A stretch of DNA of 20,318 nucleotides, taken from NCBI GenBank assembly GCA_946408315.1, contig CAMJRV010000008.1, forward strand, positions 1 through 20,318, read 5' to 3'. Positions within the stretch are counted from its first letter, which is position 1; each line of letters opens with the position of its first letter. Origin of the DNA: an uncultured Bacillota bacterium (GTDB lineage Bacteria > Bacillota > Clostridia > Peptostreptococcales > Anaerovoracaceae). This document shows, piece by piece, positions 2,538-19,429 of the stretch. A program made the position numbers and the translations under genes. The notes under the pieces are model-generated. The model searched no databases, was not told the DNA's origin, and saw only the letters and a list, made by a program, of their open reading frames with translations.

Positions 2538-2573
2538 TTGCTTGTGCGGCAAATGAGTGGTATATTAGTATAC
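2538..2573 (+). promoter_or_regulatory. Promoter of the GntR gene with overlapping operator (site A)
   Basis: TTGCTT at 2538-2543 and TATATT at 2561-2566 are separated by exactly 17 nt, a credible sigma-A-type promoter. The -10 lies inside TATATTAGTATAC (2561-2573), and GTATA/TATAC at 2560-2564 and 2569-2573 form an inverted repeat. TAGTATACAA (2566-2575) is close to the TTGTATACAA half of known GntR/FadR-type operators. The same 13-mer recurs at 5104 and, with one change, at 8765. Its position over the -10 of the repressor gene suggests autoregulation. Confidence 0.65.
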
Positions 2574-2621
2574 AAACAAGGATTTATATTGAAGATTATG
2601 GTGGAAATGGGGTCATATAAC

Positions 2622-3302
2622 ATGAAACAACTTAGCAGCAGGCAGAGGAATGCAAATAAACTCAGCGTATACAATACTCTGAAAAATGCAATTCAGTTCC
2701 TGGAGCTAAAGCCTGGAACGCAAATCGTAGAAGCGGATTTAAGCGCGGAGCTTGGCGTGAGCAGAACACCGATCCGCGAGGCTTTGATGCGATTGTCGGA
2801 TGAACTGCTTGTAGAGATCTACCCCCAGAGGGGAACTTATGTTTCTAAAATCGACCTTTCTCTATCCAAAGAGATGGCCTATATGAGACATGTTCTTGAG
2901 ACGGAGATTTTTTCAAAATTGTGTGAAGAAAAGGCGGACATTCAGGATGCTGTGGAGGATAAGCTCTATTTGATGAGTCTTGCCCTAAAGAGACAGGACC
3001 CTATCGAATTTATCAGAAATGATGCAGAATTTCACCGGGCAATCTTTGCCCATGCAGGCCATGAAATGATATGGAATACCATTTCCAATACGAGGGCGCA
3101 TTATGTGAGAACCCTTGTACTGGATATGAGTCTGCCCAACAGCCTGCGGAAGTCTTACCAGGCGCACAAGAAGATCGTGCAGTGCATCCAAAACGGGGAC
3201 AAGGACGGTCTCCTCGAATTGATGGAAGATCATCACGACTATAAGCTTACTCCAATGGATGAAAAGATTAAAGCGGCGTATCCTGACTATTTTAAAGACT
3301 GA
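2622..3302 (+). CDS. GntR-family transcriptional regulator, FadR/FCD subfamily
   Basis: From ATG 2622 the protein has 226 residues, normal for FadR/FCD regulators. An N-terminal winged helix (about 12-78) contains the family hallmark ELGVSRTPIREALMRLSDE and ends GTYVSKID. The C-terminal FCD ligand domain (about 85-220) shows the conserved acidic and histidine positions in DAEFHRAIFAHAGH, QAHKKIVQCI and MEDHHDYK that bind metal in many members. The frame is open up to a TTG at 2538, but that would place the promoter inside the gene; ATG 2622 follows GGAAATGGGG and starts just before the DNA-binding domain (ATG 2598 is an alternative). FCD regulators usually repress sugar-acid, amino-acid or organic-acid catabolism and release DNA on binding a pathway compound. 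The repeated operator-like motif at its own promoter and the two catabolic promoters makes it the likely local regulator. Confidence 0.92.
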   Translation: MKQLSSRQRNANKLSVYNTLKNAIQFLELKPGTQIVEADLSAELGVSRTPIREALMRLSDELLVEIYPQRGTYVSKIDLSLSKEMAYMRHVLETEIFSKLCEEKADIQDAVEDKLYLMSLALKRQDPIEFIRNDAEFHRAIFAHAGHEMIWNTISNTRAHYVRTLVLDMSLPNSLRKSYQAHKKIVQCIQNGDKDGLLELMEDHHDYKLTPMDEKIKAAYPDYFKD

Positions 3303-5201: not shown

Positions 5202-5990
5202 ATGCTTATCAAATTAGGACAGATAAAAAGCGGGTACAACGAGATAACCAACATGGAGACAAAGGCCCAGAACATGTTAATGGATGTTGGGATACAGAAG
5301 ATAGCGGCAGGGCAGGCGGTTACTTTTCAAGACAGTGAAAAGGAAACGGCGTTCCTGCTGATGGACGGCGAAGTCTTATTTCAATGGGAGAATCAGTCGA
5401 AATCTGCGGCAAGAGTCTCGTTGTTCGATGAGAGCCCTTCGGCGCTTCATGTATCAAAGAACATGCAGGTAAAGATAGAGGCGATAAAAGACGCGGAGGT
5501 TCTGGTCCAGAAGACGACCAATCCCGGCGCGTTTGAAGCGAAGTTTTATGACCGGGAAGACTGCGTCAGCGAAATTTTAGGAGAAAACGTATGGAATGAC
5601 ATGGCTCGCCGGGTGATCCGGACGGTCTTTGATTATACCAATGCGCCCTACTCCAACATGGTTCTCGGAGAAGTCGTTAATTTCCCCGGAAAGTGGTCCA
5701 GTTACATTCCCCACGGACATGACCAGCCGGAGGTTTATGTTTACAGATTTGACAAGGAGAGCGGGTTTGGCGCGGGATTTATCGGAGATGACGTATATAA
5801 GATAGAGAACAACAGCGCCTTATGTATTCCGGGAGGACCGACCCATCCTCAGGTAACGGCTCCGGGCTATCCGATGTATTACTGCTGGATGATCCGGCAC
5901 CTGGAGAATAATCCCTGGGTCGGCAGAACCAATGACAGCAGGTATGAATGGCTTTTGGAAAAGGACGTAAAAATATGGCCGGAAAAATAA
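5202..5990 (+). CDS. IolB/KduI-family isomerase (5-deoxy-glucuronate isomerase-like)
   Basis: A 262-residue cupin-type protein of the IolB/KduI family. IolB isomerises 5-deoxyglucuronate in myo-inositol breakdown; KduI acts on a keto-uronate. The C-terminal cupin carries the expected metal site: His171, His173 and Glu177 in YIPHGHDQPEVYVYRF, and His215 in PTHPQVTAPGYPMYY. The wording VYVYRF and the His-containing loop before PGYPMYY are typical of IolB. ATG 5202 has GGAGGAGGAG eight nt upstream. It is the first gene of a three-gene unit behind operator site B. No other inositol genes (iolC, iolD, iolE) are in view, so the substrate may be a different open-chain uronate or amino derivative. 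The family is confident; the reaction is inferred. Confidence 0.85.
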   Translation: MLIKLGQIKSGYNEITNMETKAQNMLMDVGIQKIAAGQAVTFQDSEKETAFLLMDGEVLFQWENQSKSAARVSLFDESPSALHVSKNMQVKIEAIKDAEVLVQKTTNPGAFEAKFYDREDCVSEILGENVWNDMARRVIRTVFDYTNAPYSNMVLGEVVNFPGKWSSYIPHGHDQPEVYVYRFDKESGFGAGFIGDDVYKIENNSALCIPGGPTHPQVTAPGYPMYYCWMIRHLENNPWVGRTNDSRYEWLLEKDVKIWPEK

Positions 5991-6037: not shown

Positions 6038-7453
6038 ATGATGGAAAAGAAGAAGCCTTATGAGAAATTATTGAACTGCGTTGCCTCGTCGGAAGAGATT
6101 ACATCCGGAAACAGAGAGGGATTGGCGGACTTTTTAAACTATGAGCATCCCGGAGATGTTTTATTCACCAAATGGAAGTGCCCGCCGGTCATTGAAGAGG
6201 GAAAGGGTAACAAGATCTGGGATGTTGACGGAAAAGAATACATAGACTGCATTTGCGGCATGTCTACCATGAATATCGGACACGGAGATCCAAGAATCGC
6301 AAAGGTCCTGTCGGATCAATATCTGAAGCTTGGCCACTGGTTTGATTTTCCCACGCCGGAAAGACTTGAGCTGGTAAAACGGCTGACGGAAATTACCCCC
6401 GGAGATTACAAGAAAAAGGTAAGGCTTACCTTAAGCGGCTCCGACGCTGTTGAAAATGCCATACGCGCAGCCCGCAGCCATACCGGGAAAACCCATATCA
6501 TTTCATTTTATGGGGCTTATCATGGACAGAATACCGCCACGATGGGCATCACCGGCGCCGGCTCCATGCATCGCTGGTACAACCCTGTTCCGCCGGCCGA
6601 CCACTGCGTAGAACATTTCCCTTATGCATATTGCTACCGCTGTCCTTACGGAAAAGAATACGGCACTTGCGATATGCAGTGCGTAAAGTCGATCGACATG
6701 CTCATGAGCTCCGGCCAAACGAGTCTGGGCAACCCCATGGCCGGCGTCAACAATGTCGCCGCCCTCATCGTCGAGCCGGCTCAGAGTTCCGCAGGATATA
6801 TCGTTCCTCCGAAAGAATTTCTTGTGGGATTGAGAGAACTGGCTGACAAATACGGCTTCCTGCTCATCTTTGACGAGATTCAGACCGGAATGGGAAGAAC
6901 CGGCAAAATGTTTGCCTGTGAGCACGCCGGCGTCGCTCCTGATATTACGCTGATCGGAAAAGCCATCGGAGGAGGCTTCCCTATGGGAGCTGTCGTGGCC
7001 CGGGCTGAGGTATTTGATGATCTGGCGCCTGGCTATGTGGTGACAACCTATGCGGGCGGGGCTCTGGGCTGCGCCGTATCCAATAAGGTCCTCGATATTT
7101 TTGAAGAGGATGACCTGATCGGAAATTGCGCCAGGGTTGGGGAATATCTCGCCTCTGTCGTAGCCGGATTCAAGGAAAAGCATCCGATCATCGGCACATA
7201 TTCGCTGCAGGGCGTATACCTTGGAATCGAATTGGTCTCCGATCAGAAAACGAAAGAACCGGCGATCAAAGCGACGGCGGAACTGGTGGAAAACATGCGC
7301 AGAGCCGGACTTCTGGCGCAGCTCAACGGCTATTACAATAACAGGATTTCTTTCATCCCGCCGTTAACAATTAAAAATTCTGATGTTGACGAGATCTTTG
7401 CCATTCTTGATCCGCTGGTGACTGAGATAGAAGCAAAATACGGCGTCAAATAG
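6038..7453 (+). CDS. Class III pyridoxal-phosphate aminotransferase
   Basis: A 471-residue fold-type I aminotransferase of class III. Visible marks are SGSDAVENAIRAAR with the cofactor phosphate site, FYGAYHGQ, the cofactor-contacting Asp279 in LLIFDEIQTGMGRTG, and the Schiff-base Lys308 in LIGKAIGGGFPMGA. Class III members move amino groups from the far end of compounds such as GABA, ornithine, beta-alanine or amino sugars to pyruvate or 2-oxoglutarate. A loop with four cysteines lies at 199-215 (CYRC, then C211 and C215). SD GAAAGGAG precedes ATG 6038 and ATG 6041, and spacing favours 6041 slightly. It sits between the IolB-like and MocA-like genes. Alanine dehydrogenase at the far end of the region suggests pyruvate/alanine as the amino-group partner (inference). 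The substrate is unknown. Confidence 0.92.
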   Translation: MMEKKKPYEKLLNCVASSEEITSGNREGLADFLNYEHPGDVLFTKWKCPPVIEEGKGNKIWDVDGKEYIDCICGMSTMNIGHGDPRIAKVLSDQYLKLGHWFDFPTPERLELVKRLTEITPGDYKKKVRLTLSGSDAVENAIRAARSHTGKTHIISFYGAYHGQNTATMGITGAGSMHRWYNPVPPADHCVEHFPYAYCYRCPYGKEYGTCDMQCVKSIDMLMSSGQTSLGNPMAGVNNVAALIVEPAQSSAGYIVPPKEFLVGLRELADKYGFLLIFDEIQTGMGRTGKMFACEHAGVAPDITLIGKAIGGGFPMGAVVARAEVFDDLAPGYVVTTYAGGALGCAVSNKVLDIFEEDDLIGNCARVGEYLASVVAGFKEKHPIIGTYSLQGVYLGIELVSDQKTKEPAIKATAELVENMRRAGLLAQLNGYYNNRISFIPPLTIKNSDVDEIFAILDPLVTEIEAKYGVK

Positions 7454-7468
7454 ACAGACAAAATAACC

Positions 7469-7512
7469 GGCAGGCGGCCAGGTGGACTTCTCCTCCATTT
7501 GGCTTGCCTGCC
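7469..7512 (+). other. Imperfect hairpin between aminotransferase and MocA-like genes
   Basis: GGCAGGC (7469-7475) pairs with GCCTGCC (7506-7512). Inside, CCA..TGGA pairs with TCCA..TGG around CTTCTCC, giving a long interrupted stem. No T-run follows. It may be a transcript-stability or processing element inside the operon. Confidence 0.45.
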
Positions 7513-7560
7513 ATTGTTAGCATTGAAACCCGCAAATGTGATGGAAATAAGGTGATTTCA

Positions 7561-8697
7561 TTGAGAAGAATTAAAGCAGGGATTATTGGAATGGGTTTTG
7601 TCGGACCAATTCAAATGGAGGCGGTAAGACGGCTGAATTTTGTAGACATCGCGATCGCCGGAAGCAGTGACGTCAGGGCAAAAGAGGCTGCTGACAAATA
7701 CTGTGTCCGGAAATATTATGGAGACTGGCAGGGCTTGGTAAGAGATCCGGAAATAGAAGTGGTACATATCTGCACCCCTAACGATCTGCATTATCCCATT
7801 GCCAAATTGGCATTATCGCAGGGAAAGCATGTCGTATGCGACAAACCTTTAACTTTGGACCAGAAACAATCCGCGGAGCTTGTAGAATTGGCGGAAAAGG
7901 CGAGGGCAGTGAATGCGGTTACCTTTAACACCTCTTTTTATCCAATGATTCAGCAAGCCAGGCTTATGGCAGAAAGTGGAGCAATCGGAAAGATCAATTA
8001 TTTACAAGGTTACTACCTTCAGGATTGGATGCTTTACGACTATGATTACAATTGGCGTGTAGAAGCCCAGTATCAGGGAGCTTCAAGAGTCGTGGGTGAT
8101 ATAGGGGTGCACTGCCTATATATGCTGCAACTAATCACAGGGCAGAAAATTTCCGAAGTATATTCAGATTTCAATAGATTTATCGAAAAGAGAAAAAAAC
8201 CATTGGAGAAAGTTGCAACCTATGGAGACAACAAGAATATGGCCTATGAAGAAATAACCGTTGATACGGAGGATCAGGCGACCTTGCTGTTAAAATTCGA
8301 GAATGGAACAAGAGGCGTCTTTGTAGGCGGTCAGTGCTTTGCCGGGAGAAAAAACCGATTGGGGTGGGAAATTTACGGCTCTGAACAAAGTCTGTCCTGG
8401 AATGGCGAGGAACCCAATCAGCTCTGGATTGGAAACAGGTTAAAGAGCAATGAAGTAATACTGAAGGACTTTAACCTGATCGATAAAAGGATTGACGGTT
8501 TCTGTGATTTTGCCGGAGGCCTCCAGGAAGGCTATGCTGAATCATGGAAGAATATGATGAAGACAATCTATGCTGCGATTTTAGAGGGAAAGCATAATGA
8601 CAGTTATCCTTCCTTTAAAGATGGCTTGCAGATTCAGAAAGTTGTTGATGCAGCGGTTGAAAGCGACAGAGTGAAGCAGTGGGTGAAGGTTCAATAA
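7561..8697 (+). CDS. Gfo/Idh/MocA-family NAD(P)-dependent oxidoreductase
   Basis: From a TTG start at 7561 the protein has 378 residues. This start is chosen because AAGGTGAT ends five nt upstream, matching the anti-Shine-Dalgarno, and the protein then begins MRRIKAGIIGMGFVG, the usual distance from the Rossmann fold. The frame is open up to a TTG at 7504, but that lies inside a hairpin with no binding site. The Rossmann motif GIIGMGFVG, CDKP with Lys95 (the EKP-type motif) and GDIGVH with His184 define the Gfo/Idh/MocA family. The usual Asp four residues after that His is replaced (HCLYML). Family members oxidise a hydroxyl on sugars, inositols or amino-inositols such as the rhizopine MocA substrate. 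Last gene of unit 1. The substrate is unknown. Confidence 0.9.
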   Translation: MRRIKAGIIGMGFVGPIQMEAVRRLNFVDIAIAGSSDVRAKEAADKYCVRKYYGDWQGLVRDPEIEVVHICTPNDLHYPIAKLALSQGKHVVCDKPLTLDQKQSAELVELAEKARAVNAVTFNTSFYPMIQQARLMAESGAIGKINYLQGYYLQDWMLYDYDYNWRVEAQYQGASRVVGDIGVHCLYMLQLITGQKISEVYSDFNRFIEKRKKPLEKVATYGDNKNMAYEEITVDTEDQATLLLKFENGTRGVFVGGQCFAGRKNRLGWEIYGSEQSLSWNGEEPNQLWIGNRLKSNEVILKDFNLIDKRIDGFCDFAGGLQEGYAESWKNMMKTIYAAILEGKHNDSYPSFKDGLQIQKVVDAAVESDRVKQWVKVQ

Positions 8698-8777: not shown

Positions 8778-8842
8778 ATATAAAGATGATGTGCTGATTG
8801 CACAGTGACCTGACGGGTTTCCCATGAATGGAGGATAATGAA

Positions 8843-9868
8843 ATGTCGAGAAAAGAAACGATGACAGCAGCCGTATTTGAAAGAAAAGGCGTATTGACCG
8901 TAAAAGAAATCCCTCTTCCCAAGATCAAAACACCGGAAGATGTTCTTATTAAGGTAAAAGCGGTAAGCATCTGCGGAACCGACGTCAGAGCGCTGACGGA
9001 TCCGCCGGCATTTTTATTCACGGAAGGCATCGTAGTCGGTCATGAATTTAACGGGATCGTGGAAGCGATCGGAGAAAATGTAACCAATGTGAAGGTAGGC
9101 GACAGTGTAGTCGTCCATCCGAACAACTGGTGCGGAAAATGCTATTTTTGCAGAACCGGCAAAATCAATCTGTGTGAAAGCTTTACTCATATCGGGGACA
9201 AGGTTGACGGAGCGATGGCAGAATACGCCTGCGTGCCGGAAAAGCTGGTCTATAAAATCAACGCGGAGATTCCTCCGTATATCGCCTGCCTCACAGAGCC
9301 TTTGGCCTGTGTCCTGAATCCGACGATGGACGTCCGCGTCCACCCCGGTGAGAGCGTCGTCGTTTTAGGCGCCGGACCGATCGGATTGATCTTCATGATG
9401 CTGTATAAAGCGGCGGGAGCCAAGGTGATCATGTCCGACCTGTCGGAGCATCGGAGAGCCTTCGCACTGAAGCTGGGAGCGGACCTTGTCTTTGATCCGA
9501 GCGATGAGGGCATGGTTGCGAAAATCAGAAAAGAGACCGAAGTAGGAGCCAACATCGTCGTAGACGCTGTGGGTCTGCTGATGGAGCAGGCGGTCCAACT
9601 GGTCAGAAAAGGCGGCGACGTGATCCTGTTCGGGATCAACGAGGCTGCAAAGGTGCAATTGCATCAGGCTCCCATCGTCTTTAACGAAATCAATATACAC
9701 GGAAAGTTTATTACAAAGGGGACCTTCCCCAGTGCCATAAAAATCATAGAAAACAATATCATTCCCATTGAAAAGCTGGTAACCCATCGCCTGCCGATTC
9801 AGGAAATCAAGACAGGCCTGGAATTGATGAAGAGCGGCGAAGGCTGCAAAGTAATCATCGAGATGTAA
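8843..9868 (+). CDS. Zinc-dependent medium-chain alcohol/polyol dehydrogenase (threonine/sorbitol dehydrogenase-like)
   Basis: A 341-residue MDR-superfamily zinc dehydrogenase. Catalytic zinc ligands are Cys44 in SICGTD, His67/Glu68 in GHEF and a Glu in TEPLACVLN. Structural zinc is bound by Cys97, Cys100, Cys103 and Cys111 (CGKCYFCRTGKINLC). The Rossmann motif is VLGAGPIGLIF. ATG 8843 is chosen over ATG 8828 because GGAGG (8830-8834) lies eight nt before 8843 but overlaps the earlier start codon. The family oxidises secondary alcohols of polyols, sugars or threonine with NAD(P). It is the first gene behind operator site C and sits 18 nt from the next SDR gene. A role as sugar, cyclitol or sugar-acid dehydrogenase is inferred from the attached transporter. 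Confidence 0.92.
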   Translation: MSRKETMTAAVFERKGVLTVKEIPLPKIKTPEDVLIKVKAVSICGTDVRALTDPPAFLFTEGIVVGHEFNGIVEAIGENVTNVKVGDSVVVHPNNWCGKCYFCRTGKINLCESFTHIGDKVDGAMAEYACVPEKLVYKINAEIPPYIACLTEPLACVLNPTMDVRVHPGESVVVLGAGPIGLIFMMLYKAAGAKVIMSDLSEHRRAFALKLGADLVFDPSDEGMVAKIRKETEVGANIVVDAVGLLMEQAVQLVRKGGDVILFGINEAAKVQLHQAPIVFNEINIHGKFITKGTFPSAIKIIENNIIPIEKLVTHRLPIQEIKTGLELMKSGEGCKVIIEM

Positions 9869-9886: not shown

Positions 9887-10663
9887 ATGGATTTGAACGG
9901 TAAGTCTGCAATCGTAACAGGAGGCGGTCAGGGAATCGGAAGAGGCATTGCTTTGGCCCTTGCAAAGCACGGCGCCGACGTGATGATCTGCGACCTGAAT
10001 ATGGAGGCCGCGGCCAGTGTTGCCAAAGAAGTGGAAGACCTTGGAAGAAAGGCCCTGCCGTTTCAGATGGACGTCACCAGTGAGGATGATGCCGGACGGA
10101 TGGCGGAAGAAGCGTATCAATTCTTTGGAAAGATCGATTTGCTTTACAATAACGCCGGAACGATCAGCATGAGCCTGATCGAAGATCTGGACGCAAAGGC
10201 CTGGGATCAAATTTTTGCGGTAAATTGCAAAGGCGTATTTCTATGCACGAAGGCGGTCATCCCCTACATGAAAAAGCAGGGCGGAGGAAGGATCATCAAC
10301 ACCGCTTCCCAGGCGGGAAAGACGGGACTGTCCCTGTTGACCCACTATTGCGCGACGAAGGCGGCGGTGATCTTGTTTACGAAAGGACTCGCTTTGGAAT
10401 TAGCCCCTCATAATATCCTGGTAAACTGCTTCTGCCCCGGCTCCGTAATGACGGACATGACGATAAGAGAATCGAAATGGGCGTCTGAAATGACCGGAGA
10501 AGATCCGGAAGACATTCTGAAAAAATGGGAAAGCGCAATTCCGCTGGGCAGATATGCCACACCGGATGACATCGCCAACGTAGCGGTTTTTCTCGCTTCG
10601 GAATACAGCAGCTATATGACCGGACAAGCGGTCAATGTGACCGGCGGACAGGAAATGCACTGA
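9887..10663 (+). CDS. SDR-family NAD-dependent oxidoreductase
   Basis: A 258-residue classical SDR with all expected elements: TGGGQGIG cofactor loop, Asp in VMICDLN at the end of the second strand (suggests NAD over NADP), NNAG, catalytic Ser141 in NTASQAG, Tyr154 and Lys158 in YCATK, and the C-terminal ASEYSSYMTGQAVNVTGGQEMH typical of sugar or polyol dehydrogenases. AAGGGAGGA lies about seven nt before ATG 9887. It is not especially close to the two SDRs near 3400-4880: they end VRGxxRW, this one ends NVTGGQEMH. It is probably a second dehydrogenation step in the pathway. The substrate is unknown. Confidence 0.92.
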   Translation: MDLNGKSAIVTGGGQGIGRGIALALAKHGADVMICDLNMEAAASVAKEVEDLGRKALPFQMDVTSEDDAGRMAEEAYQFFGKIDLLYNNAGTISMSLIEDLDAKAWDQIFAVNCKGVFLCTKAVIPYMKKQGGGRIINTASQAGKTGLSLLTHYCATKAAVILFTKGLALELAPHNILVNCFCPGSVMTDMTIRESKWASEMTGEDPEDILKKWESAIPLGRYATPDDIANVAVFLASEYSSYMTGQAVNVTGGQEMH

Positions 10664-10796
10664 GAATACTCGTCAGACTCGTATAGAAAGAAACGCCACA
10701 GAACAGAAGAAACGGCCACCACTTGATATTTAGTGCATATAGGATGCACTGAGTAATAAAAAAGAGGAGAAAAGAAGAAAAGAGGAGGACATGAAT
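10664..10796 (+). promoter_or_regulatory. Leader before the transporter genes: inverted repeat and polypurine tract
   Basis: AGTGCAT (10732-10738) and ATGCACT (10744-10750) are perfect 7-bp inverted repeats around ATAGG, next to a TTGATA at 10723-10728. No well-spaced -10 follows, so an independent promoter is doubtful. From 10758 to 10789 every base is a purine, with GAGGAG at 10764-10769 and AGGAGG at 10783-10788. The second is the ribosome site for the binding-protein gene. The repeat may be an operator or a small transcript hairpin. Confidence 0.45.
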
Positions 10797-11801
10797 ATGA
10801 AGTTCAAAAAAGGTATCGCGATGGTCTTGGCAGTCTTTTTAATGGTAACGTTGTTTGGATGCGGCGCGGCTGAAACCGGCAAGGAAGGCGACTCAGGAGA
10901 TAAAACAATCAAGGTCGGCGTTGCGAGCCAGTGGATGAAAGAACAGGTATACCGTGACGTACAGGTGGGCGCAGAAGCAAAAGCGAAAGAACTGGGAATG
11001 AACCTTGAATGGCAGACCTGTGACGGCAATGCGGAAAAAGAATTAGAAATCGTAAATAATTACATCACCAGGGACTTTGATGTCCTTATCATTGAGCCGG
11101 TCAATCCCGAGACGTCCACTCCGATGATGGAAGCAGCTCAGGCAGCCGGTATCCCGGTCATCAATCTGGAGGCTGAGGTAAAAGGCGGAGACGGAGCCGC
11201 CGTTCGGATCACATGTGACTTCGAGGCTATCGGAGCCGCCAATGCTCAGAGATTCATCGACAAGTGGGGTGCTGACAAGCCGGCAAACGTGGTCATCCTC
11301 GCGGGTACGAAGACGGATGACGTAGCCCAGGCGGTCACGAGAGGTTATCATGACGTGCTTGATAAGAACCCCCAGATTAAAATCGTTCAGGAAGAGTGGC
11401 ACAACAACTGGGACCGTCAACTGGCGATGAATACAATGCAGAACGTTCTGGCAAGAGGCGACAAAGTGGACGCTGTTTTCTCAAACAATGACGGAATGGG
11501 AATCGGCGCTGTGAGAGCGGCGGAAGAAGCCGGCGTAAAGGATCAGATCCTTTTCTTCTCCATGGATCACGATAAGGATGCCGTACAGGAAATGAAGGCC
11601 GGAACCAAGTATACGACCGTCGACAAATCGTCTCACGTATCGGGCGAAAGGCTGATGGAAGCAGCTTATGCCATTGCCACCGGCGCAGATGTTCCGTACG
11701 ACGAAGAAGTAAATGGCGTGAAAACCTGGTATACTCCGTTCAGATTTACATCATGGGAAGATCTGTCGGTTTCCAAGGAAGTTTATCCGGATATGTTCTA
11801 A
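10797..11801 (+). CDS. Sugar ABC transporter substrate-binding lipoprotein (RbsB-like)
   Basis: From ATG 10797 the protein has 334 residues. This start has AGGAGG eight nt upstream, while ATG 10791 would be only two nt away. A lipoprotein signal (positive N-end MKFKKG, hydrophobic core, lipobox LFGC with Cys22) is followed by a type I periplasmic-binding-protein fold of the ribose/galactose/xylose class (KTIKVGVASQWMKE, DVLIIEPVNPETSTPMMEAAQAAGIPVINLE, DAVFSNNDGMGIGAVRAAEEAG). It captures the pathway substrate outside the membrane. Binding proteins of this class take monosaccharides, polyols, inositols and some non-sugar ligands, so the ligand must be tested. It is followed by a strong hairpin and the ATPase and permease genes. 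Confidence 0.93.
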   Translation: MKFKKGIAMVLAVFLMVTLFGCGAAETGKEGDSGDKTIKVGVASQWMKEQVYRDVQVGAEAKAKELGMNLEWQTCDGNAEKELEIVNNYITRDFDVLIIEPVNPETSTPMMEAAQAAGIPVINLEAEVKGGDGAAVRITCDFEAIGAANAQRFIDKWGADKPANVVILAGTKTDDVAQAVTRGYHDVLDKNPQIKIVQEEWHNNWDRQLAMNTMQNVLARGDKVDAVFSNNDGMGIGAVRAAEEAGVKDQILFFSMDHDKDAVQEMKAGTKYTTVDKSSHVSGERLMEAAYAIATGADVPYDEEVNGVKTWYTPFRFTSWEDLSVSKEVYPDMF

Positions 11802-11921: not shown

Positions 11922-13442
11922 ATGAATATCGTTGAATTTGACAGGATATCGATTCAATTCCCCGGCGTCATGGCTCTCAAAGAGGTTTCCTTCGATATGA
12001 AAAAGGGAGAAGTTATGGCTCTTTGCGGCGAAAATGGCGCGGGCAAGTCAACGCTGGCAAAGATATTGGCAGGAGTCTATCCCTATCACGATTATACGGG
12101 AGAAATCCGGTACAAGGGGAAAACCCTCAAGAACGCGCTGCCCATCGATGCAGAGAAAAACGGAATCTTTATGGTCCACCAGGAGCTGACCCTAATAAAA
12201 GAAATGACGGTTGCGGAAAACATATTTCTAAGCCATTTTCCAAAAAAATACGGCATGGTTGATTTCAAGGCGATGGAAGAGATGGCGAGGCAATATCTGG
12301 AGGAGCTGGGCTTACATATAGACCCGAACATGAAGATAAAGGACCTGACGGTTGCCATGCAGCAAATGGTGGAAATCGCAAAAGCCTTATCGGGGGAAAC
12401 GGAAATTATTATCTTTGACGAATCGACCAGCGCCTTGACAAACAATGAAGTACAAGCGCTGTTTCAGATCATAAGAGAGCTGAAAAGACGAGAAGTAACG
12501 GTCATCTTTGTCACCCACAAATTGGACGAGATTTTTGAAATCTGCGATACGGTGACGGTTCTTAAGGACGGCGAGCTGGTGAAGGCGGGTGTGAGAATCG
12601 ACAGCGTCGAAAAAGATGATGTGATCAAAATGATGATCGGCAGGGAGTTGAAGGAAATGTATCCCGAAAAACCTGCTCTGACGGAGAGCGGAGAAAAAGT
12701 ATTTGAGGTAAAGAACTGGACTTTCCTGAACCCTGAGAGAGCGGGCCATAAGTTGGTTGATGATTTCAGCTTTGAGATCAGGCGGAACGAGATCGTCGGC
12801 ATGTACGGTCTGGTAGGCGCCGGGAGAACGGAATTGGTCAATTCCATATTTGAAGGAGCGAGCAAGTATTGCAGCGGAGAAGTTTGCTTAAACGGAACGG
12901 CGGTCACGATACGGTCGTCCTGTGACGCGGTAAAATGCGGCATTTCATTGATTACCGAGGACAGAAAAAACTCAGGACTGTTTTTGAAGCTCAGTGTAAA
13001 TGACAATTTATCTACCGCTTCTCTGAACAGCCTGGCAAATATATTGGGCGTTATAAATGAGAAGGCGGAAGCGGAGCGAAATGAGCGGATGATCAAGGAT
13101 ATGGCCGTGAAATTAAGGTCCGGCGAGCAACTAATCGAAAGTCTGTCAGGCGGCAATCAGCAGAAGGTGATCATCGGAAAATGGCTGCTGACCGCTCCCA
13201 AGGTATTGATTTTGGATGAGCCTACAAAGGGAATTGACGTCGGGTCTAAATCGGAAATCTATAAAATGCTTCGCAAGCTGTCACAACAGGGGATTGCCAT
13301 TTTGATCGTCAGTTCTGAACTGCCGGAAATCATAGGCGTCTGCGATAAGGTGATCGTTGTTCGCGAAGGAAAGAATGTCGGAGAGTTTCGGGGCGATTGC
13401 TGCGAAGAGGAATTGTTGAATAAGGCCATGGGGAGGATGTAA
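11922..13442 (+). CDS. Sugar ABC transporter ATP-binding protein, tandem domains (RbsA/MglA/XylG type)
   Basis: A 506-residue protein with two ABC domains, the normal length for monosaccharide importers. Domain 1 has Walker A GENGAGKST at 36-44, a signature region LTVAMQQMVEIAKAL and Walker B IIIFDEST. Domain 2 has the degenerate Walker A GLVGAGRTEL, the intact signature LSGGNQQKV and Walker B VLILDEPTKGIDVG, as usual in this subfamily. ATG 11922 follows AAGGAG by five nt. It powers import through the permease encoded 2 nt downstream and is membrane-associated on the cytoplasmic side. The substrate is set by the binding protein, not by this subunit. Confidence 0.95.
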   Translation: MNIVEFDRISIQFPGVMALKEVSFDMKKGEVMALCGENGAGKSTLAKILAGVYPYHDYTGEIRYKGKTLKNALPIDAEKNGIFMVHQELTLIKEMTVAENIFLSHFPKKYGMVDFKAMEEMARQYLEELGLHIDPNMKIKDLTVAMQQMVEIAKALSGETEIIIFDESTSALTNNEVQALFQIIRELKRREVTVIFVTHKLDEIFEICDTVTVLKDGELVKAGVRIDSVEKDDVIKMMIGRELKEMYPEKPALTESGEKVFEVKNWTFLNPERAGHKLVDDFSFEIRRNEIVGMYGLVGAGRTELVNSIFEGASKYCSGEVCLNGTAVTIRSSCDAVKCGISLITEDRKNSGLFLKLSVNDNLSTASLNSLANILGVINEKAEAERNERMIKDMAVKLRSGEQLIESLSGGNQQKVIIGKWLLTAPKVLILDEPTKGIDVGSKSEIYKMLRKLSQQGIAILIVSSELPEIIGVCDKVIVVREGKNVGEFRGDCCEEELLNKAMGRM

Positions 13443-13444
13443 CA

Positions 13445-14554
13445 ATGGAAAAGTTACAACGAATAAAGAAAATTGATCTGACAAAATATACGTCGTTGGT
13501 CGGCCTGATTGGACTGATTATTGCATCTGCAATCCTGAGCCCGGCGTTTTTAAAACCTGTTAATATTTTAAATATTCTTCGCCAGATTGTCCCCAACGGG
13601 ATCGTGGCATGCGGCATGACCATGGTCATCCTGACGGGAGGGATCGACCTGTCCGCCGGAAGTCTGTTTGCCCTTGCGGGAGTTTCTGTGGCGCTGATGC
13701 TGCCGATCATGTCATGGCCGGCTGCGACCGTTTTGCTCCTCGTCCTTTCAATTGGGATGGGCGCTCTTATCGGACTTGCAATCACAAAGCTGAACGTTCC
13801 TCCCTTCATCATCACCCTGGCGGGACTGACGGCGTATCGTGGAATCGCCATGGCGATGACGGATGCGGCGAATATCTACATTGAGGATAAGAGCTTTGCT
13901 ACTGTGCTGGGTTCCGGACAGGTCCCCGCAACCTATGTCTACATCGGCTTAGCGGCCTTCCTGGTATTTTCCGTTTATAAATTCATAAAAGCGCTCCAGA
14001 CCCCGGGAACGAAAAAAGCGAAGGAGAGCGCAAAGCTGGCGCTGATCTGCTGTGGGGTCGGATATATGGGGTATCTGGTAAACAGCACCGGATTTCTGAA
14101 CGTACAGATCGTATACTACGTCATCGTGCTGGTAATCTCCATGTTCCTGCTGAACAAAACCGTCTGGGGAAGAGAGCTCTATGCCGTGGGCGGAAACTTC
14201 AAGGCGGCTAAAATGACGGGAATCAAGGCAGACCGGACCGTGATCAAGGCATACGTCTTCATGACGCTGCTGGGCGCCTTTGCCGGCATCCTCGTCGCTG
14301 CAAAGCTGCAGTCCGGCGTACCTGCCGTAGGAGTCGGCGCCGAATTCGACGCCATCACCGCTGTCGTTATCGGCGGCACGAGCCTGGCGGGCGGCGTGGG
14401 CAAGCTGCAGGGCACGATCATCGGCGTCCTTCTCATCGGCGTATTGAATAATCTGCTTTCCCTGCTCAACGTTCCGGTGGACTATCAGAATATACTGAAG
14501 GGTGTTATCATATTCTTAGCCGTTGTGATCGACACTAAGTTCAAAAAGAACTGA
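13445..14554 (+). CDS. Sugar ABC transporter permease (RbsC/XylH type)
   Basis: A 369-residue membrane protein of the branched-chain/monosaccharide permease family. Marks are the conserved LTGGIDLSAGSLFALAG loop, PPFIITLAGLTAYRG and the cytoplasmic coupling region AVGGNFKAAKMTGIKADR, followed by a hydrophobic C-terminal half with GGTSLAGGVGKLQGT. It is about 50 residues longer than typical RbsC because of a polar loop and extra helix around residues 180-205 (KALQTPGTKKAKESAK), resembling the longer xylose-type permeases. It starts 2 nt after the ATPase stop with GGGAGG inside the end of that gene. It forms the transmembrane channel of the importer. Confidence 0.93.
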   Translation: MEKLQRIKKIDLTKYTSLVGLIGLIIASAILSPAFLKPVNILNILRQIVPNGIVACGMTMVILTGGIDLSAGSLFALAGVSVALMLPIMSWPAATVLLLVLSIGMGALIGLAITKLNVPPFIITLAGLTAYRGIAMAMTDAANIYIEDKSFATVLGSGQVPATYVYIGLAAFLVFSVYKFIKALQTPGTKKAKESAKLALICCGVGYMGYLVNSTGFLNVQIVYYVIVLVISMFLLNKTVWGRELYAVGGNFKAAKMTGIKADRTVIKAYVFMTLLGAFAGILVAAKLQSGVPAVGVGAEFDAITAVVIGGTSLAGGVGKLQGTIIGVLLIGVLNNLLSLLNVPVDYQNILKGVIIFLAVVIDTKFKKN

Positions 14555-14589: not shown

Positions 14590-16356
14590 ATGAACGCTGA
14601 AAAACTTGAATATATCAGAGGGTTGAAGCCGAAGGCGCACCCGGACGGAAGAGAACTGCTGAAGGAAGGTATAGCAATCGGAGCGTCTTTTCAGGCGGGC
14701 CGGAGCCGGTTTATCCGGGAGAGTGAATATGATACCTTTCTTGACTATAAGAAAGCCTGCACCGCCGAGGGAAGAATCTACTTCAACATGCTCCTGGGTT
14801 TAGCCACCCTTGACGAGCAGGTGGAGGCCATCAAAAAGGTTCATGGATTTATTGAGCGGACCGGACTGGTGGTGGATGCGATCCAGACCATTCCCAGCGG
14901 CCTTGTGGCACTGCCGAGGGAATACAGGGAAAAGGCTCCTTCCACGACGAGCTACGTTACGGATGGCTATGAGGACTATGAAGTTCAGGTGGAAGCAGCG
15001 CCCATCGAGGTGACCTTTAACGACTATCACCTGGCTTCGCCGGACGGCCTGGAAACAACCATCTTTGCATTGAAGTCCGGCGCGGCGATCATCGGGGAAT
15101 TTTCCCAGTTCCTTTGGGGATATCCCGGTTTCGACGACGATGTCAAGCGCTTTTCGGACATGGTAAAAGCGCTGGGGATTATGGCCTCCAAGCGAGATGA
15201 AAAATTTATGGTAAAGACCTATCTGGACGATGGCTTTGCCGGATATTTTATCGACTGCGCGTCCTATGTGGGATATGCGATGCTGGAGCATTACATCTGT
15301 ACGAAATTGTGCGGCGCCAGGTACATCATCGCCTATGGCGGGCTCCTGAGCGAGAACGACACGAGAATGGGCATCGCGCTGGCGCTGCATGAATTGCTGT
15401 CTACGGAGGATCAGCCTGCGCTGTATTATATCAACAGCTCGACGAACCTCCAGTGGGACCACGATATACATGGAAACTACGGAATCAGTGTTTCGGAGCT
15501 GCTCTTTGAAATGATTGTGGAAAAGAAATATAAGATCGGTCTTGGCGTAAATCCCGTTTCCATCACGGAAAAGATCAAGGTCCCCACCCTTTCCGAGCTG
15601 TTTGATATTCTCTCTGCGGGGAAGCGTGCGGAAGAAATCGCGGATCAGTGGCTGCCCTATATGGACTTCAGCGGGCTTGAGCGGATGCGGGACGTTATGG
15701 TGGAGCAGGGAAGGCAGTTTTTTAATAATGTGCTGGCCGGTTTTTCTGAAGCGGGAATCGATATCGAGGATCCGCTGGAAATGATTCTGGCCCTGAAGAA
15801 CTTTAATCCCATCAAATTTGAACAGACCTTCCATTCCACGTCGTTTCAGACGGAACACGGAGAGGTCAGGCCCTTCTATCCTACGGAAATGGGAAGACAG
15901 ACCTTCAAGATGAAGGATGAAGTGATTGAGAATCTGAAAAAAACAGAGATGGAGGGAGCCTTAAAGGGGAAAAAAATAGTTGTCGCATCGGGGGACGCCC
16001 ATACCTACGGGTTGATTCTGGTGGAAGGCGTGTTGACGGAAATGGGAGCCGATGTGGTCAACGGCGGCGTTGATATGGACGCTGTGGATATGCTGGACCT
16101 GGCGGACGAGGAAGGGACGAGATTTATCGGGATCAGCTGCCATAACGGGCAGGCCCTCGATTATGGACGCCAGATCCTGCAATTGGCGCAGGAGAGAGAA
16201 AAAGACTATTGGATCTTCATGGGCGGAAAGTTGAACGCCATTTTGCCGGGAGATTCGGAACCGACGGAAATCGGTCACGTATTGGAAGAAATGGGCATCC
16301 ACGCAGAGAATGACATGGAGAAAACCGTGGCCCTAATCAGTACGGAGGCCAATTAG
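14590..16356 (+). CDS. Adenosylcobalamin-dependent mutase with fused B12-binding domain (glutamate mutase-like barrel)
   Basis: A 588-residue protein. Residues about 455-588 are a clear base-off/His-on cobalamin domain: Asp469-x-His471-x-x-Gly474 (DAHTYG) whose His ligates cobalt, GISCHNG around Ser516, and GG at 545-546 (FMGGKL). The first 450 residues look like a TIM barrel distantly similar to the glutamate mutase E subunit (GAAIIGEFSQFLWGYPG, AYGGLLSENDTRMGIALALHE, INSSTNLQWDHDIHG), but I cannot show conservation of its substrate residues. Mutases of this class catalyse radical carbon-skeleton rearrangements and often have the cobalamin domain as a separate subunit; here it is fused. SD GGAGGT lies seven nt before ATG 14590. 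It lies directly after the importer and before an ASKHA ATPase. The B12 domain is near certain; the barrel class is likely; the substrate is unknown. Confidence 0.82.
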   Translation: MNAEKLEYIRGLKPKAHPDGRELLKEGIAIGASFQAGRSRFIRESEYDTFLDYKKACTAEGRIYFNMLLGLATLDEQVEAIKKVHGFIERTGLVVDAIQTIPSGLVALPREYREKAPSTTSYVTDGYEDYEVQVEAAPIEVTFNDYHLASPDGLETTIFALKSGAAIIGEFSQFLWGYPGFDDDVKRFSDMVKALGIMASKRDEKFMVKTYLDDGFAGYFIDCASYVGYAMLEHYICTKLCGARYIIAYGGLLSENDTRMGIALALHELLSTEDQPALYYINSSTNLQWDHDIHGNYGISVSELLFEMIVEKKYKIGLGVNPVSITEKIKVPTLSELFDILSAGKRAEEIADQWLPYMDFSGLERMRDVMVEQGRQFFNNVLAGFSEAGIDIEDPLEMILALKNFNPIKFEQTFHSTSFQTEHGEVRPFYPTEMGRQTFKMKDEVIENLKKTEMEGALKGKKIVVASGDAHTYGLILVEGVLTEMGADVVNGGVDMDAVDMLDLADEEGTRFIGISCHNGQALDYGRQILQLAQEREKDYWIFMGGKLNAILPGDSEPTEIGHVLEEMGIHAENDMEKTVALISTEAN

Positions 16357-16385
16357 CCAGCGGCATCTGACGGAGAGGAAATACT

Positions 16386-18332
16386 ATGGCGCTTATCATG
16401 GGAATTGATACAGGAGGTACCTTTACTGACGGGGTGATCGTCGATCCGGCCGACAGGAGGGTCCTGTGCAAATCCAAGGTATTTACAGAGCCATCCGACT
16501 TGATGCGCAGCATCGGCGCGTGTATCGAAAGTCTGACCGCGGCAGAGGTGGAAAAGGTGGCTTTGGTCTGCCTGTCGACGACCCTCGCAACCAATGCGAT
16601 CGTGGAGGGAAGAAAAGGCAGAGTGGGTCTGCTCCTCATCGGAGGAGAACCGGAAGGCCGGCTGCCGGCGGATCTCTGCGTAAGGCTGCGGGGAAGGCTG
16701 GACATCAAGGGGGCGGAAAAAGAACGCCTTGATCGGGAGGAAATCTTACAGGCAATTGAAAGCCTGAAGCATCGCGTCGACGCCATGGCGATTTCCGGAT
16801 ACGCCAGCGTCCGAAATCCTGACCATGAGCTGCAAGTGAAGCAGCTGATCCGCGACAGGACGGCGCTGCCGGGGGTCTGCGCCCATGAGCTGACGTCGGA
16901 ATTGGGATATTACGACAGAACGGTTACTGTGGCATTGAATGCGGGTCTGATCCCGGTGATCAGCGAGTTGATTCATGCCGTAAAAAATGTGCTGCAAAAT
17001 AGAAAGATCAACGCCTCCATCATGATCGTCAAAGGGGATGGAAGCCTGATGCAGGAATCCTTTGCTCTGGACAGGCCCATCGACACCATTCTGTCGGGCC
17101 CGGCCGCCAGCGTGATTGGCGGTATCTTCCTGACCGATCAGAAAGAAGCGCTGGTTATCGACATGGGAGGAACGACGACGGATATCGCGCGGATAGCGGG
17201 AGGCGGCGTAAAAATCAGAAAGAGCGGAGCGAGGGTAGGCGGATGGTCGACCCGGACTCAGGCCGCCGACATCTGCACCTTTGGCATTGGCGGGAACAGC
17301 CGCCTGTACTTTTCCGCCCGGGGTGAGCTGCGAATCGGACCCCAGCGGGTACAGTCCCTCTGTGCCGCGGGAAGCCGGTATCCCTGGCTGAGCCGCGAGC
17401 TGGAGGAAGTGAGACGCCTGGAGGAGCTGAGGCATTTGGAAAAACGAAATGCCTGGATGCAGGCGGAGGAAGGCGAGCGTTTCCATGAGCCGGAGGAACA
17501 GGAAACAGACTGCTTTTCTCTCGGCGTGCGATGGGAGAAAGAAGATCTGAACGATCTGGAAAAACAAATCGTGGAAAGCCTGAAGGATGGCCCTCACAGC
17601 CTCTTCTTCCTTGTGCGAATGCTGGAAAAGGAGCCGGAAGAGCTGGGGTTGACCCATCTAGTCAGGAAAGGAATTCTTGACAGGATTGCAGTCACGCCCA
17701 CCGATCTCCTGCACGTATCGGGAAAATATAATATGTGGAACGCCGCCATCGCGCGGACTGCGCTGGAAATCGTTGCGGAAAGGCGCAGTACCTCTGTGGC
17801 GGAGCTTCTGGAAACTGCAGAGCGCGCGATGACAGATCGGCTGTGTGCCGCCTGCCGGGAGAGTGTGGACGGTTTTGAAAAAGGAAATACGGATTTTTTC
17901 CTGCGGACTCCCATGGTGGCGATTGGAGCGCCTGTCAGGGCATGGATGCCTGCGGTAGGAGATAAGCTTTACACCAAGCTTATCATCCCAGAACACTCCG
18001 AGGTGGCCAACGCCATCGGAGCGGCGGTGGGTCAGGTTATGGAGAGCGCAGAAGCGTTGATCAGACCCCGAAAAGAACCTGAGGGTTTTCTGCTTCACGC
18101 CCCCTGGGAATACAGGTATTTTGAAACCCTGGAAGAGGCCGTTGCATATACGGTTCCCGCAATCAGACGATACGTCGAGGATTTGGCGAGAGGTGCGGGA
18201 AGCGATGCGGTGGAGCTTGTTGAGAGCCATGAGCATATCTTTGCGGAGATTGATACCGGCGGCCGGAAAACGTACATTGAGACCAGGGTCCGGGCGGCGG
18301 CAATCGGCAGCCCAAAATGGAAAACGTTTTAA
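16386..18332 (+). CDS. HyuA/hydantoinase-oxoprolinase-type ASKHA ATPase, possible mutase reactivase
   Basis: A 648-residue protein of the hydantoinase A/oxoprolinase family. Phosphate-1 motif GIDTGGTFTDG is at 6-16, phosphate-2 motif DMGGTTTDI at 259-267 and the adenosine motif VANAIGAAVG at about 540-549. Between them, at about 388-442, is a segment resembling a winged helix (DLEKQIVESLKDGPHSLFFL, LVRKGILDRI), preceded by a charged, Glu-rich stretch (about 340-375). True hydantoinases and acetone carboxylases pair HyuA with a HyuB-like subunit; none is in view. ASKHA ATPases, including diol dehydratase and ethanolamine lyase reactivases and corrinoid activators, serve B12 enzymes. Being 29 nt downstream of the mutase gene, reactivation or cofactor exchange is the most economical role (inference). 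SD GGAGAGGA precedes ATG 16386. Confidence 0.82.
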   Translation: MALIMGIDTGGTFTDGVIVDPADRRVLCKSKVFTEPSDLMRSIGACIESLTAAEVEKVALVCLSTTLATNAIVEGRKGRVGLLLIGGEPEGRLPADLCVRLRGRLDIKGAEKERLDREEILQAIESLKHRVDAMAISGYASVRNPDHELQVKQLIRDRTALPGVCAHELTSELGYYDRTVTVALNAGLIPVISELIHAVKNVLQNRKINASIMIVKGDGSLMQESFALDRPIDTILSGPAASVIGGIFLTDQKEALVIDMGGTTTDIARIAGGGVKIRKSGARVGGWSTRTQAADICTFGIGGNSRLYFSARGELRIGPQRVQSLCAAGSRYPWLSRELEEVRRLEELRHLEKRNAWMQAEEGERFHEPEEQETDCFSLGVRWEKEDLNDLEKQIVESLKDGPHSLFFLVRMLEKEPEELGLTHLVRKGILDRIAVTPTDLLHVSGKYNMWNAAIARTALEIVAERRSTSVAELLETAERAMTDRLCAACRESVDGFEKGNTDFFLRTPMVAIGAPVRAWMPAVGDKLYTKLIIPEHSEVANAIGAAVGQVMESAEALIRPRKEPEGFLLHAPWEYRYFETLEEAVAYTVPAIRRYVEDLARGAGSDAVELVESHEHIFAEIDTGGRKTYIETRVRAAAIGSPKWKTF

Positions 18333-18379
18333 ATAAAATCAGATATTTTGAAAAAGAAAAATCGAGGAGGCAGATGAAA

Positions 18380-19429
18380 ATGGACAAATTACTGGAAACC
18401 ACGCAGAAATTCCCCATGACGAAGTATTGGAACGATTCTTGTTCCGTCAAGGAGCTCACCTACGCCATGGAAAGAGGTGCGGTGGGGGCGACCACAAACC
18501 CGGTAATCGTAAAAGGCGTGCTGGAGAAGGAGCTGGACAGCTATCGGGACTACATCGCACAGCTTGTAAAGGATCATCCCACCTCATCGGAGGATGAGAT
18601 CGCCTGGATGGTCATTGAGAAGATGGCGGTGGACGGAGCTAGGCTCCTGGAACCCCTCTTCGATTCAAAGACAGGAACGGGAAGGATTTCCATCCAGACC
18701 AATACGAAGTATTTCAACAATGCGGAAAAACTGGTGGATCAGGCTGTATACTTCAATACCCTTGCTCCCAATATGCAGATAAAAGCCCCTGCGACCTCGG
18801 CCGGAATCAAAGCCTTTGAAGAGATGACCTACCGGGGCGTCAGCATCAATGCCACCGTATCCTTTACGGCTACCCAGGCCATCGCTGTGGGCGAGGCTGT
18901 GGAGCGTGGCCTTGCCAGGAGGGAAGCGGAGGGCCTTGACAACTCTGAAATCAACCCCGTCTGCACGATTATGGTGGGCAGGCTTGACGATTGGCTGCGG
19001 GAAAGCGCTGAAAAGAAGGATATCTGCATCGATCCCTGCGCCCTGCATTACGCTGGAATTGCCTGCGTGAAGAAGGCGTACAAGGTGTATAAGGAAAGAG
19101 GCTGGAAGACGAAGCTGCTGTCGGCCGCCTACCGGACGCCACTCCAGTGGCTGGAGTTCATCGGGGGAGACATGATCATGACGATTCCCTACAAGAACCA
19201 GGTGCCCTTCAACGGTTCCGATTTTGAAATCAAAGCGAGAATGGACGACGAAGTGGACCCTTATTACATCAAGGAATTGAGAAAGCATCCGGATTTCGTA
19301 AAAGCTTATGACGAAATGAGCGTGGAGGAATTCGACACCTACGGCCCTGTGAACAAGACCTTGGATCAGTTCGCGGGAGGCTATGACGACCTCGTGAAGA
19401 TCATCAGGAAATTTATGATCAGATATTAG
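18380..19429 (+). CDS. Transaldolase-family protein with altered active site
   Basis: From ATG 18380 the protein has 349 residues. GAGGAGG (18364-18370) is nine nt upstream, better than ATG 18374; an upstream ATG at 18317 would overlap the ATPase gene. Transaldolase marks: ATTNPVIV near the N-terminus, Schiff-base Lys135 in MQIKAPATSAGIKAFEE, SINATVSFTATQA and MVGRLDDW. By alignment with E. coli TalB from memory, the Glu that takes part in catalysis (Glu96, in RISTEVDARLS) corresponds to Gln106 (RISIQTNTKYF). The enzyme should move or release a three-carbon dihydroxyacetone unit through a Lys imine, but the change suggests an altered substrate or an aldolase-like activity (inference). It lies between the ASKHA ATPase and alanine dehydrogenase genes. 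Confidence 0.87.
   Translation: MDKLLETTQKFPMTKYWNDSCSVKELTYAMERGAVGATTNPVIVKGVLEKELDSYRDYIAQLVKDHPTSSEDEIAWMVIEKMAVDGARLLEPLFDSKTGTGRISIQTNTKYFNNAEKLVDQAVYFNTLAPNMQIKAPATSAGIKAFEEMTYRGVSINATVSFTATQAIAVGEAVERGLARREAEGLDNSEINPVCTIMVGRLDDWLRESAEKKDICIDPCALHYAGIACVKKAYKVYKERGWKTKLLSAAYRTPLQWLEFIGGDMIMTIPYKNQVPFNGSDFEIKARMDDEVDPYYIKELRKHPDFVKAYDEMSVEEFDTYGPVNKTLDQFAGGYDDLVKIIRKFMIRY

Follow-up and report, generated by a model that had tools for sequence, protein, structure and literature searches.

The locus described here raises the question of what a vitamin B12-dependent enzyme is doing among genes for the uptake and breakdown of a sugar. The window (the whole stretch of DNA analysed) is an entire 20,318-base contig from an uncultured Bacillota bacterium (GCA_946408315.1, CAMJRV010000008.1), whose genome is assembled in 589 contigs and is 67% complete. 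In it, a mutase-like protein with a B12-binding domain stands directly behind a complete monosaccharide-type ATP-binding cassette (ABC) importer (a binding protein, an ATPase and one permease) and is followed by a HyuA-like ATPase, a transaldolase and an alanine dehydrogenase, as a preliminary description made from the sequence alone had reported (Table 1). That description took the set to be an undescribed catabolic pathway; its gene-level observation and the uncharacterised mutase stood up, and the transaldolase and the importer did not hold as constant partners. The reading that we favour, with slightly better than even confidence, is a claim at the level of enzyme class: the mutase is an uncharacterised adenosylcobalamin (AdoCbl) radical isomerase that works with a reactivase and with a pyridoxal phosphate (PLP) enzyme as partner. 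The gene company also suggests a sugar-related breakdown route as the setting of this B12 radical chemistry; our confidence in any single substrate is low.

The 588-residue protein and its intact DxHxxG motif are as first described. The B12-binding domain PF02310 covers residues 464-554 (39.0 bits against a cut-off of 32.1). At E <= 0.001 no further Pfam model is matched, so that the barrel has no assignment, and none to the acyl-CoA mutase barrel family MM_CoA_mutase. The motif residues D469, H471 and G474 are invariant in all 138 aligned relatives, and so is E327. Among the relatives, D145, D214, D222, E233 and R346 of the barrel are likewise invariant, and R113 and R259 nearly so. The list obtained by comparing the predicted fold is headed by glutamate mutase and lysine 5,6-aminomutase, and the protein has both features of the AdoCbl-dependent mutase superfamily, namely a mutase-type barrel and a base-off B12 domain with DxHxxG.

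Nevertheless, the sequence and fold tests that we ran place the barrel in none of the characterised mutase families, in keeping with the preliminary description, and those for membership among the glutamate mutases, the acyl-CoA mutases and the PLP aminomutases were all negative. Among the families covered by the fold lists, the nearest folds to the barrel are only 9-12% identical. Glutamate mutase consists of GlmS and GlmE (with GlmL), whereas the present mutase is one fused chain, about 11% identical; PF06368 (the glutamate mutase epsilon-subunit family) matches neither the mutase nor, at E <= 1e-3, any protein of the host genome, hhalign against five glutamate mutase E sequences gives a probability of 0.1-0.2% (a weak test, with five sequences and Neff 1.4), and the B12 domain reaches 28.5 bits with the methylaspartate mutase S model NF002612, under its cut-off of 110. 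Two papers (PMC4413051, PMC3958899) report that Glu330 of glutamate mutase is in contact with the adenosyl ribose, and by analogy the invariant Glu327 may touch it as well. Methylmalonyl-CoA-type acyl-CoA mutases are 9-12% identical to the protein, and the PLP-dependent B12 aminomutases 9-13%. At +11 from His471, which we take to be the position of the PLP-binding lysine of aminomutases, lysine occurs in 0 of 138 relatives and leucine in 133. PMC3958899 gives Lys144 and Lys629 as the PLP-binding lysines in the B12 domains of known aminomutases. Literature searches, in which subscription journals were thinly covered, returned no description of the mutase family, which agrees with the undescribed status first proposed, and in the portions consulted of a paper on Anoxybacterium hadale (PMC11362086) neither B12 nor sulfoquinovose nor alanine dehydrogenase is mentioned.

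The company of the mutase was counted in 29 of 33 stretches that carry a member of the family, after removal of the near-duplicates L024, L046, L047 and L051 (of L048, L049, L011 and L050). Earlier removals were L021 and L023 (contigs of L026 and L033), L001-L006 (repeats of host contigs) and L052 and L054 (repeats of L017 and L012), and the loci found by the glutamate mutase search (L034-L045) and the transaldolase search (L055-L069) are non-mutase loci. The host genome contributes five of the 29; five are shorter than 7 kb, and absences in these carry little weight. Genes were grouped by BLAST linkage (>=25% identity over half the length). The ATPase accompanies the mutase in 23 stretches, a class III PLP enzyme in 16 (a count that, given the 25% linkage, joins subfamilies only 22-27% alike to the window protein), aldehyde dehydrogenase in 13, sugar ABC genes in seven, and KduI/IolB-type isomerases and GntR-type regulators in six each. 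Alanine or glutamate dehydrogenase is present in 10 of the 29, and the constant pair of mutase and ATPase often lies close to enzymes that add or remove amino groups.

The picture sharpens in the eight orthologous stretches (the window, L011, L012, L013, L014, L015, L019 and L022, from Bacillota and Planctomycetota), in which the other mutases are 64-66% identical to that of the window. There the conserved company of the mutase comprises the ATPase (8/8), the PLP enzyme (8/8), the KduI/IolB isomerase (6/8) and the GntR-type regulator (6/8), the remaining two contigs being short (6 and 11 kb). Thus, the PLP enzyme and the isomerase, both missed by the preliminary description together with the recurring amino acid dehydrogenases, are better conserved partners than the importer and the transaldolase that it had named. 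In L011 a sugar-transport-type MFS_2 gene lies near the mutase, and in L022 a corrinoid adenosyltransferase of the CobA/BtuR type (PF02572, 2771-3298) is found about 6.7 kb from it.

The ATPase has the two HyuA domains, Hydant_A_N (109.5 bits) and Hydantoinase_A (103.3 bits, covering 147 of 291 positions). HyuA/oxoprolinase A and the acetone/acetophenone carboxylase subunits are the known relatives to compare; the present protein differs from them in recurring with mutases and in lacking, as far as the window proteins were scanned, a HyuB-type partner (the other loci were only partly scanned). The reactivase models for GlmL/MutL both score under their cut-offs (PF13941, 21.0 bits against 27; NF040745, 19.6 against 475), and, in contrast to the glutamate mutase system, the neighbours in the window are sugar and PLP enzymes. 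Despite these scores, the ATPase may work like a GlmL/MutL reactivase, and the stretches in which it accompanies the mutase are otherwise of different content.

The PLP enzyme is closest in the PDB to E. coli GabT and to an archaeal-type broad-specificity racemase, and its counterparts at the orthologous loci are 61-66% identical to it. Where GabT has Arg141 and Glu211, which we take to be functional residues of that enzyme, the window protein carries Gln and Ser, as do its counterparts at the seven other orthologous loci, so that the two residues looked for as marks of a GABA aminotransferase are lacking.

From these families a route can be sketched, in which the genes present, the predicted class of fold, the invariant motifs and the conserved gene company are observed, whereas we infer the form of the cofactor, the chaperone role, the order of the steps and the type of substrate. 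After import and oxidation, a sugar-like compound would be isomerised by the KduI/IolB-type enzyme and then cut by the transaldolase, leaving an aldehyde fragment onto or off which the PLP enzyme and the alanine dehydrogenase would move an amino group. The mutase would rearrange the resulting amino or oxo compound, a small aminated or carbonyl intermediate made or consumed by the class III PLP enzyme, with the substrate held in the barrel and the cofactor held by the B12 domain through His471. The HyuA-like ATPase would reactivate the mutase by replacing damaged cobalamin in an ATP-consuming step, and alanine dehydrogenase (glutamate dehydrogenase elsewhere) would close the amino-group cycle. 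A more specific version, in which a sugar fragment released by a transaldolase or an aldolase is aminated by the PLP enzyme, its skeleton rearranged by the AdoCbl mutase and the nitrogen then removed, so that the amine only enables radical migration, is possible but somewhat unlikely. All these steps are read from family membership.

Several observations weigh against this picture. The PLP enzyme is absent from 13 of the 29 stretches, and the class III enzymes at loci outside the orthologous set are only 22-27% identical to that of the window. The ATPase is absent from six stretches (some of them short) and is closest to catalytic HyuA-type chains and not to reactivases; the mutase-distance correlation is higher for the PLP enzyme (r 0.73) and for aldehyde dehydrogenase (r 0.67) than for the ATPase (r 0.50), and therefore does not single out the latter. 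The local profile match that places E327 on Glu330 of glutamate mutase has a probability of 0.1% and is not significant. An Rfam scan of the window returned no family at threshold, and hence no known cobalamin riboswitch there. The importer and the transaldolase are inconstant, since among the orthologous stretches sugar ABC genes occur in three (the window, L014 and L019) and a transaldolase in one; across genomes, the claim that importer and transaldolase define the pathway is thus not supported. The expectation that the gene set stays together in other genomes thus holds for the mutase with its ATPase, and fails for the transaldolase, which is close to the mutase in one of the 29 stretches, and for the sugar ABC genes with their seven.

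The transaldolase itself is well supported as such (TAL_FSA domain PF00923, 134.2 bits, cut-off 27). Its start is probably at 18380 rather than at 18317: the majority of the listed homologs have 348-349 residues and align from that point, and the ATG there is preceded by GAGGAGG. As a core member of the system it was rejected, given its rarity beside the mutase and its presence where there is none: three same-genus genomes without the mutase have a transaldolase, and in five same-genus stretches (L065-L069) it lies with KduI-type neighbours and no mutase, with sugar ABC genes beside the pair in L066, L067, L068 and L069 (three genomes without the mutase). The host genome holds four transaldolase copies, two of them broken by contig ends. 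The KduI of the window shares 59-69% identity with the KduIs of the mutase-free stretches and 37-42% with those beside the other orthologous mutases; together with the existence of those stretches, this gives the window the look of two units combined, a sugar unit of transaldolase and KduI and a second unit of mutase, ATPase and PLP enzyme, which have a KduI-type isomerase in common. Two listed transaldolases lie on contigs of the same sizes (14,128 and 1,417,903) as those of listed mutases 81-83% identical to that of the window, so that the link between the two may be real among near relatives.

Sugar import, an isomerase and a transaldolase also recall the sulfo-TAL pathway of sulfoglycolysis, whose isomerase SqvD is a FucI homolog according to PMC9594981. 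The canonical pathway was rejected on that point, the window isomerase being of the KduI/IolB type, with no match to a FucI-type sulfoquinovose isomerase beside the transaldolase among the window proteins scanned; in addition, the transaldolase is distant from the solved BmSF-TAL (E 3.5e-7), and our literature search found no paper on a KduI-like isomerase in sulfo-TAL. On another host contig (L065, contig C70, 1-3184), which begins inside a transaldolase, the transaldolase, KduI, a DkgA-like aldo/keto reductase and a TauE/SafE-type gene are consecutive, with no mutase; this row shares the last two gene types with sulfo-TAL and may represent a sugar pathway that uses a transaldolase and exports its end product.

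Other explanations of the mutase have to be weighed against a radical isomerase with reactivase and PLP partner. The mutase could perform a 1,2-amino shift or an ammonia elimination without PLP, on an amino alcohol, an amino sugar alcohol or an amino acid, much as ethanolamine ammonia-lyase does but on a glutamate-mutase scaffold, with alanine or glutamate dehydrogenase taking up the ammonia. The recurrence of these dehydrogenases (10/29) fits this, as do an EutH-type permease adjoining the mutase in L025, a diaminopentanoate-dehydrogenase-like gene ahead of it in L021/L026 and an ornithine-racemase-like gene in L027; however, these last three sit with divergent paralogs and not at orthologous loci, and the aminomutase lysine is missing throughout the relatives (at the expected spacing), which leaves this explanation rather unlikely. 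That the protein is an ordinary glutamate mutase relative, acting on glutamate/methylaspartate in amino-acid fermentation with the sugar genes as chance neighbours, is very unlikely: glutamate mutase is its nearest fold, the S-subunit model matches weakly, and glutamate dehydrogenase is directly upstream in L049 and L053, but the identity is about 11%, PF06368 is unmatched in the host genome and sugar-type genes recur beside the mutase.

Since the B12 domain also weakly matches MtgC, MtbC and methionine synthase, and methionine synthase chains appear among the fold lists, the protein might transfer methyl groups as a corrinoid methyltransferase instead of doing radical chemistry, a reading to which we give very little credence. 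For the ATPase alone, and compatibly with the radical isomerase that we favour, the HyuA-like protein could act in metabolism, activating a lactam or a comparable compound or opening its ring, and not as a chaperone. Its resemblance to catalytic chains was given above; its occurrence beside mutases in clusters of different content (including a 2-oxo acid dehydrogenase operon) and the lack of a HyuB-type match among the window proteins scanned make this unlikely.

In the window, all genes from 5202 to the contig end are on the plus strand, in the order isomerase, PLP enzyme, three oxidoreductases (GFO/IDH/MocA, zinc alcohol and short-chain), importer, mutase, ATPase, transaldolase and alanine dehydrogenase, with gaps of 2-47 bases from the importer ATPase gene to the contig end and of up to 130 bases when counted from KduI. 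The GntR-type label of the upstream regulator is our assumption from its sequence (no NCBIfam match at E <= 1e-40). At the contig start, an MtnA-type methylthioribose-1-phosphate isomerase (469-1545, above NCBIfam cut-offs) probably belongs to a separate operon.

Table 1. Features of the window around the mutase gene.
Feature	Coordinates	Strand	Basis
GntR-type regulator (presumed), kept near orthologous mutases	2538..3302	+	
KduI/IolB-type sugar isomerase, 262 amino acids (aa)	5202..5990	+	
Class III PLP enzyme, 471 aa, GabT/racemase-like by sequence	6038..7453	+	
GFO/IDH/MocA oxidoreductase	7504..8697	+	
Zinc alcohol dehydrogenase	8828..9868	+	
Short-chain dehydrogenase	9887..10663	+	
Sugar-type ABC binding protein	10791..11801	+	
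Sugar-type ABC importer ATPase	11922..13442	+	
Sugar-type ABC permease	13445..14554	+	
B12-dependent mutase-like protein, 588 aa, barrel 1-450, B12 domain ~459-588 with D469-x-H471-x-x-G474	14590..16356	+	Open reading frame (ORF), Pfam, fold comparison, alignment
HyuA-like ASKHA ATPase, 648 aa, likely reactivating chaperone	16386..18332	+	Hydant_A_N + Hydantoinase_A
Transaldolase, probably 349 aa (370 aa as ORF from 18317)	18380..19429	+	PF00923
Alanine dehydrogenase, incomplete at contig end	19442..20317	+	TIGR00518 above cut-off

The distribution of the mutase family is sporadic. At E <= 1e-100, and counting the genome of origin where it was sampled, the genomes with a match number 6 of 393 in the order, 2 of 398 in the phylum sample and 1 of 391 in the class sample (the host only), as well as 5 of 87 in the family of Butyricicoccus faecihominis, 2 of 18 in a planctomycete order and 1 of 12 in the genus of L018/L022; within the genus of the host, at E <= 1e-60, only the host itself has it (1/9). 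A scan of 84,980 species genomes with two peptide patterns found at least 14 loci. The window mutase also has metagenomic relatives 75-97% identical to it. The four further copies of the host are 35-53% identical to that of the window, and one of them (35%; L010:74-8267, contig C88) lies with its own ASKHA ATPase within an operon of the 2-oxo acid/acetoin dehydrogenase type (lipoamide dehydrogenase, E1 alpha, E1 beta, lipoyl and E2 genes). Other paralogs are accompanied by glutamate dehydrogenase, aldehyde dehydrogenase, a class II aldolase, an FGGY kinase and sugar ABC genes (L018), by a mannose-6-phosphate-isomerase-like protein, phosphofructokinase, a class II aldolase and sugar ABC genes (L050), or by malic enzyme and a LarAH6 malate racemase (L029). 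Genes for a type II glyceraldehyde-3-phosphate dehydrogenase, a phosphoglycerate kinase-like protein and a LarA-type malate racemase form a trio near the mutases of L012, L029 and L031, which may hint that a semialdehyde undergoes substrate-level phosphorylation. Also seen beside mutase paralogs were an EamA-type transporter with a 90-residue protein without Pfam match, in 7 of the 29 stretches (L007:1175-2518, L016, L026, L028, L032, L033, L049), and a truncated UvrA-like protein of about 765-846 residues (L050:7065-9503, L051:6226-8766, L053:11226-13523; two of these stretches are near-duplicates).

To our knowledge, few carbon-skeleton reactions of adenosylcobalamin are known, and a mutase family present in five copies in one genome, beside varied enzymes of amino and sugar compounds, would add to the B12 substrates on record. 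Its partners, a class III PLP enzyme and a KduI-type isomerase, reduce the range of candidate substrates, and, as Butyricicoccus faecihominis DFI.6.109, titled a strain, carries four copies of the mutase, tests may be possible in a cultured gut anaerobe.
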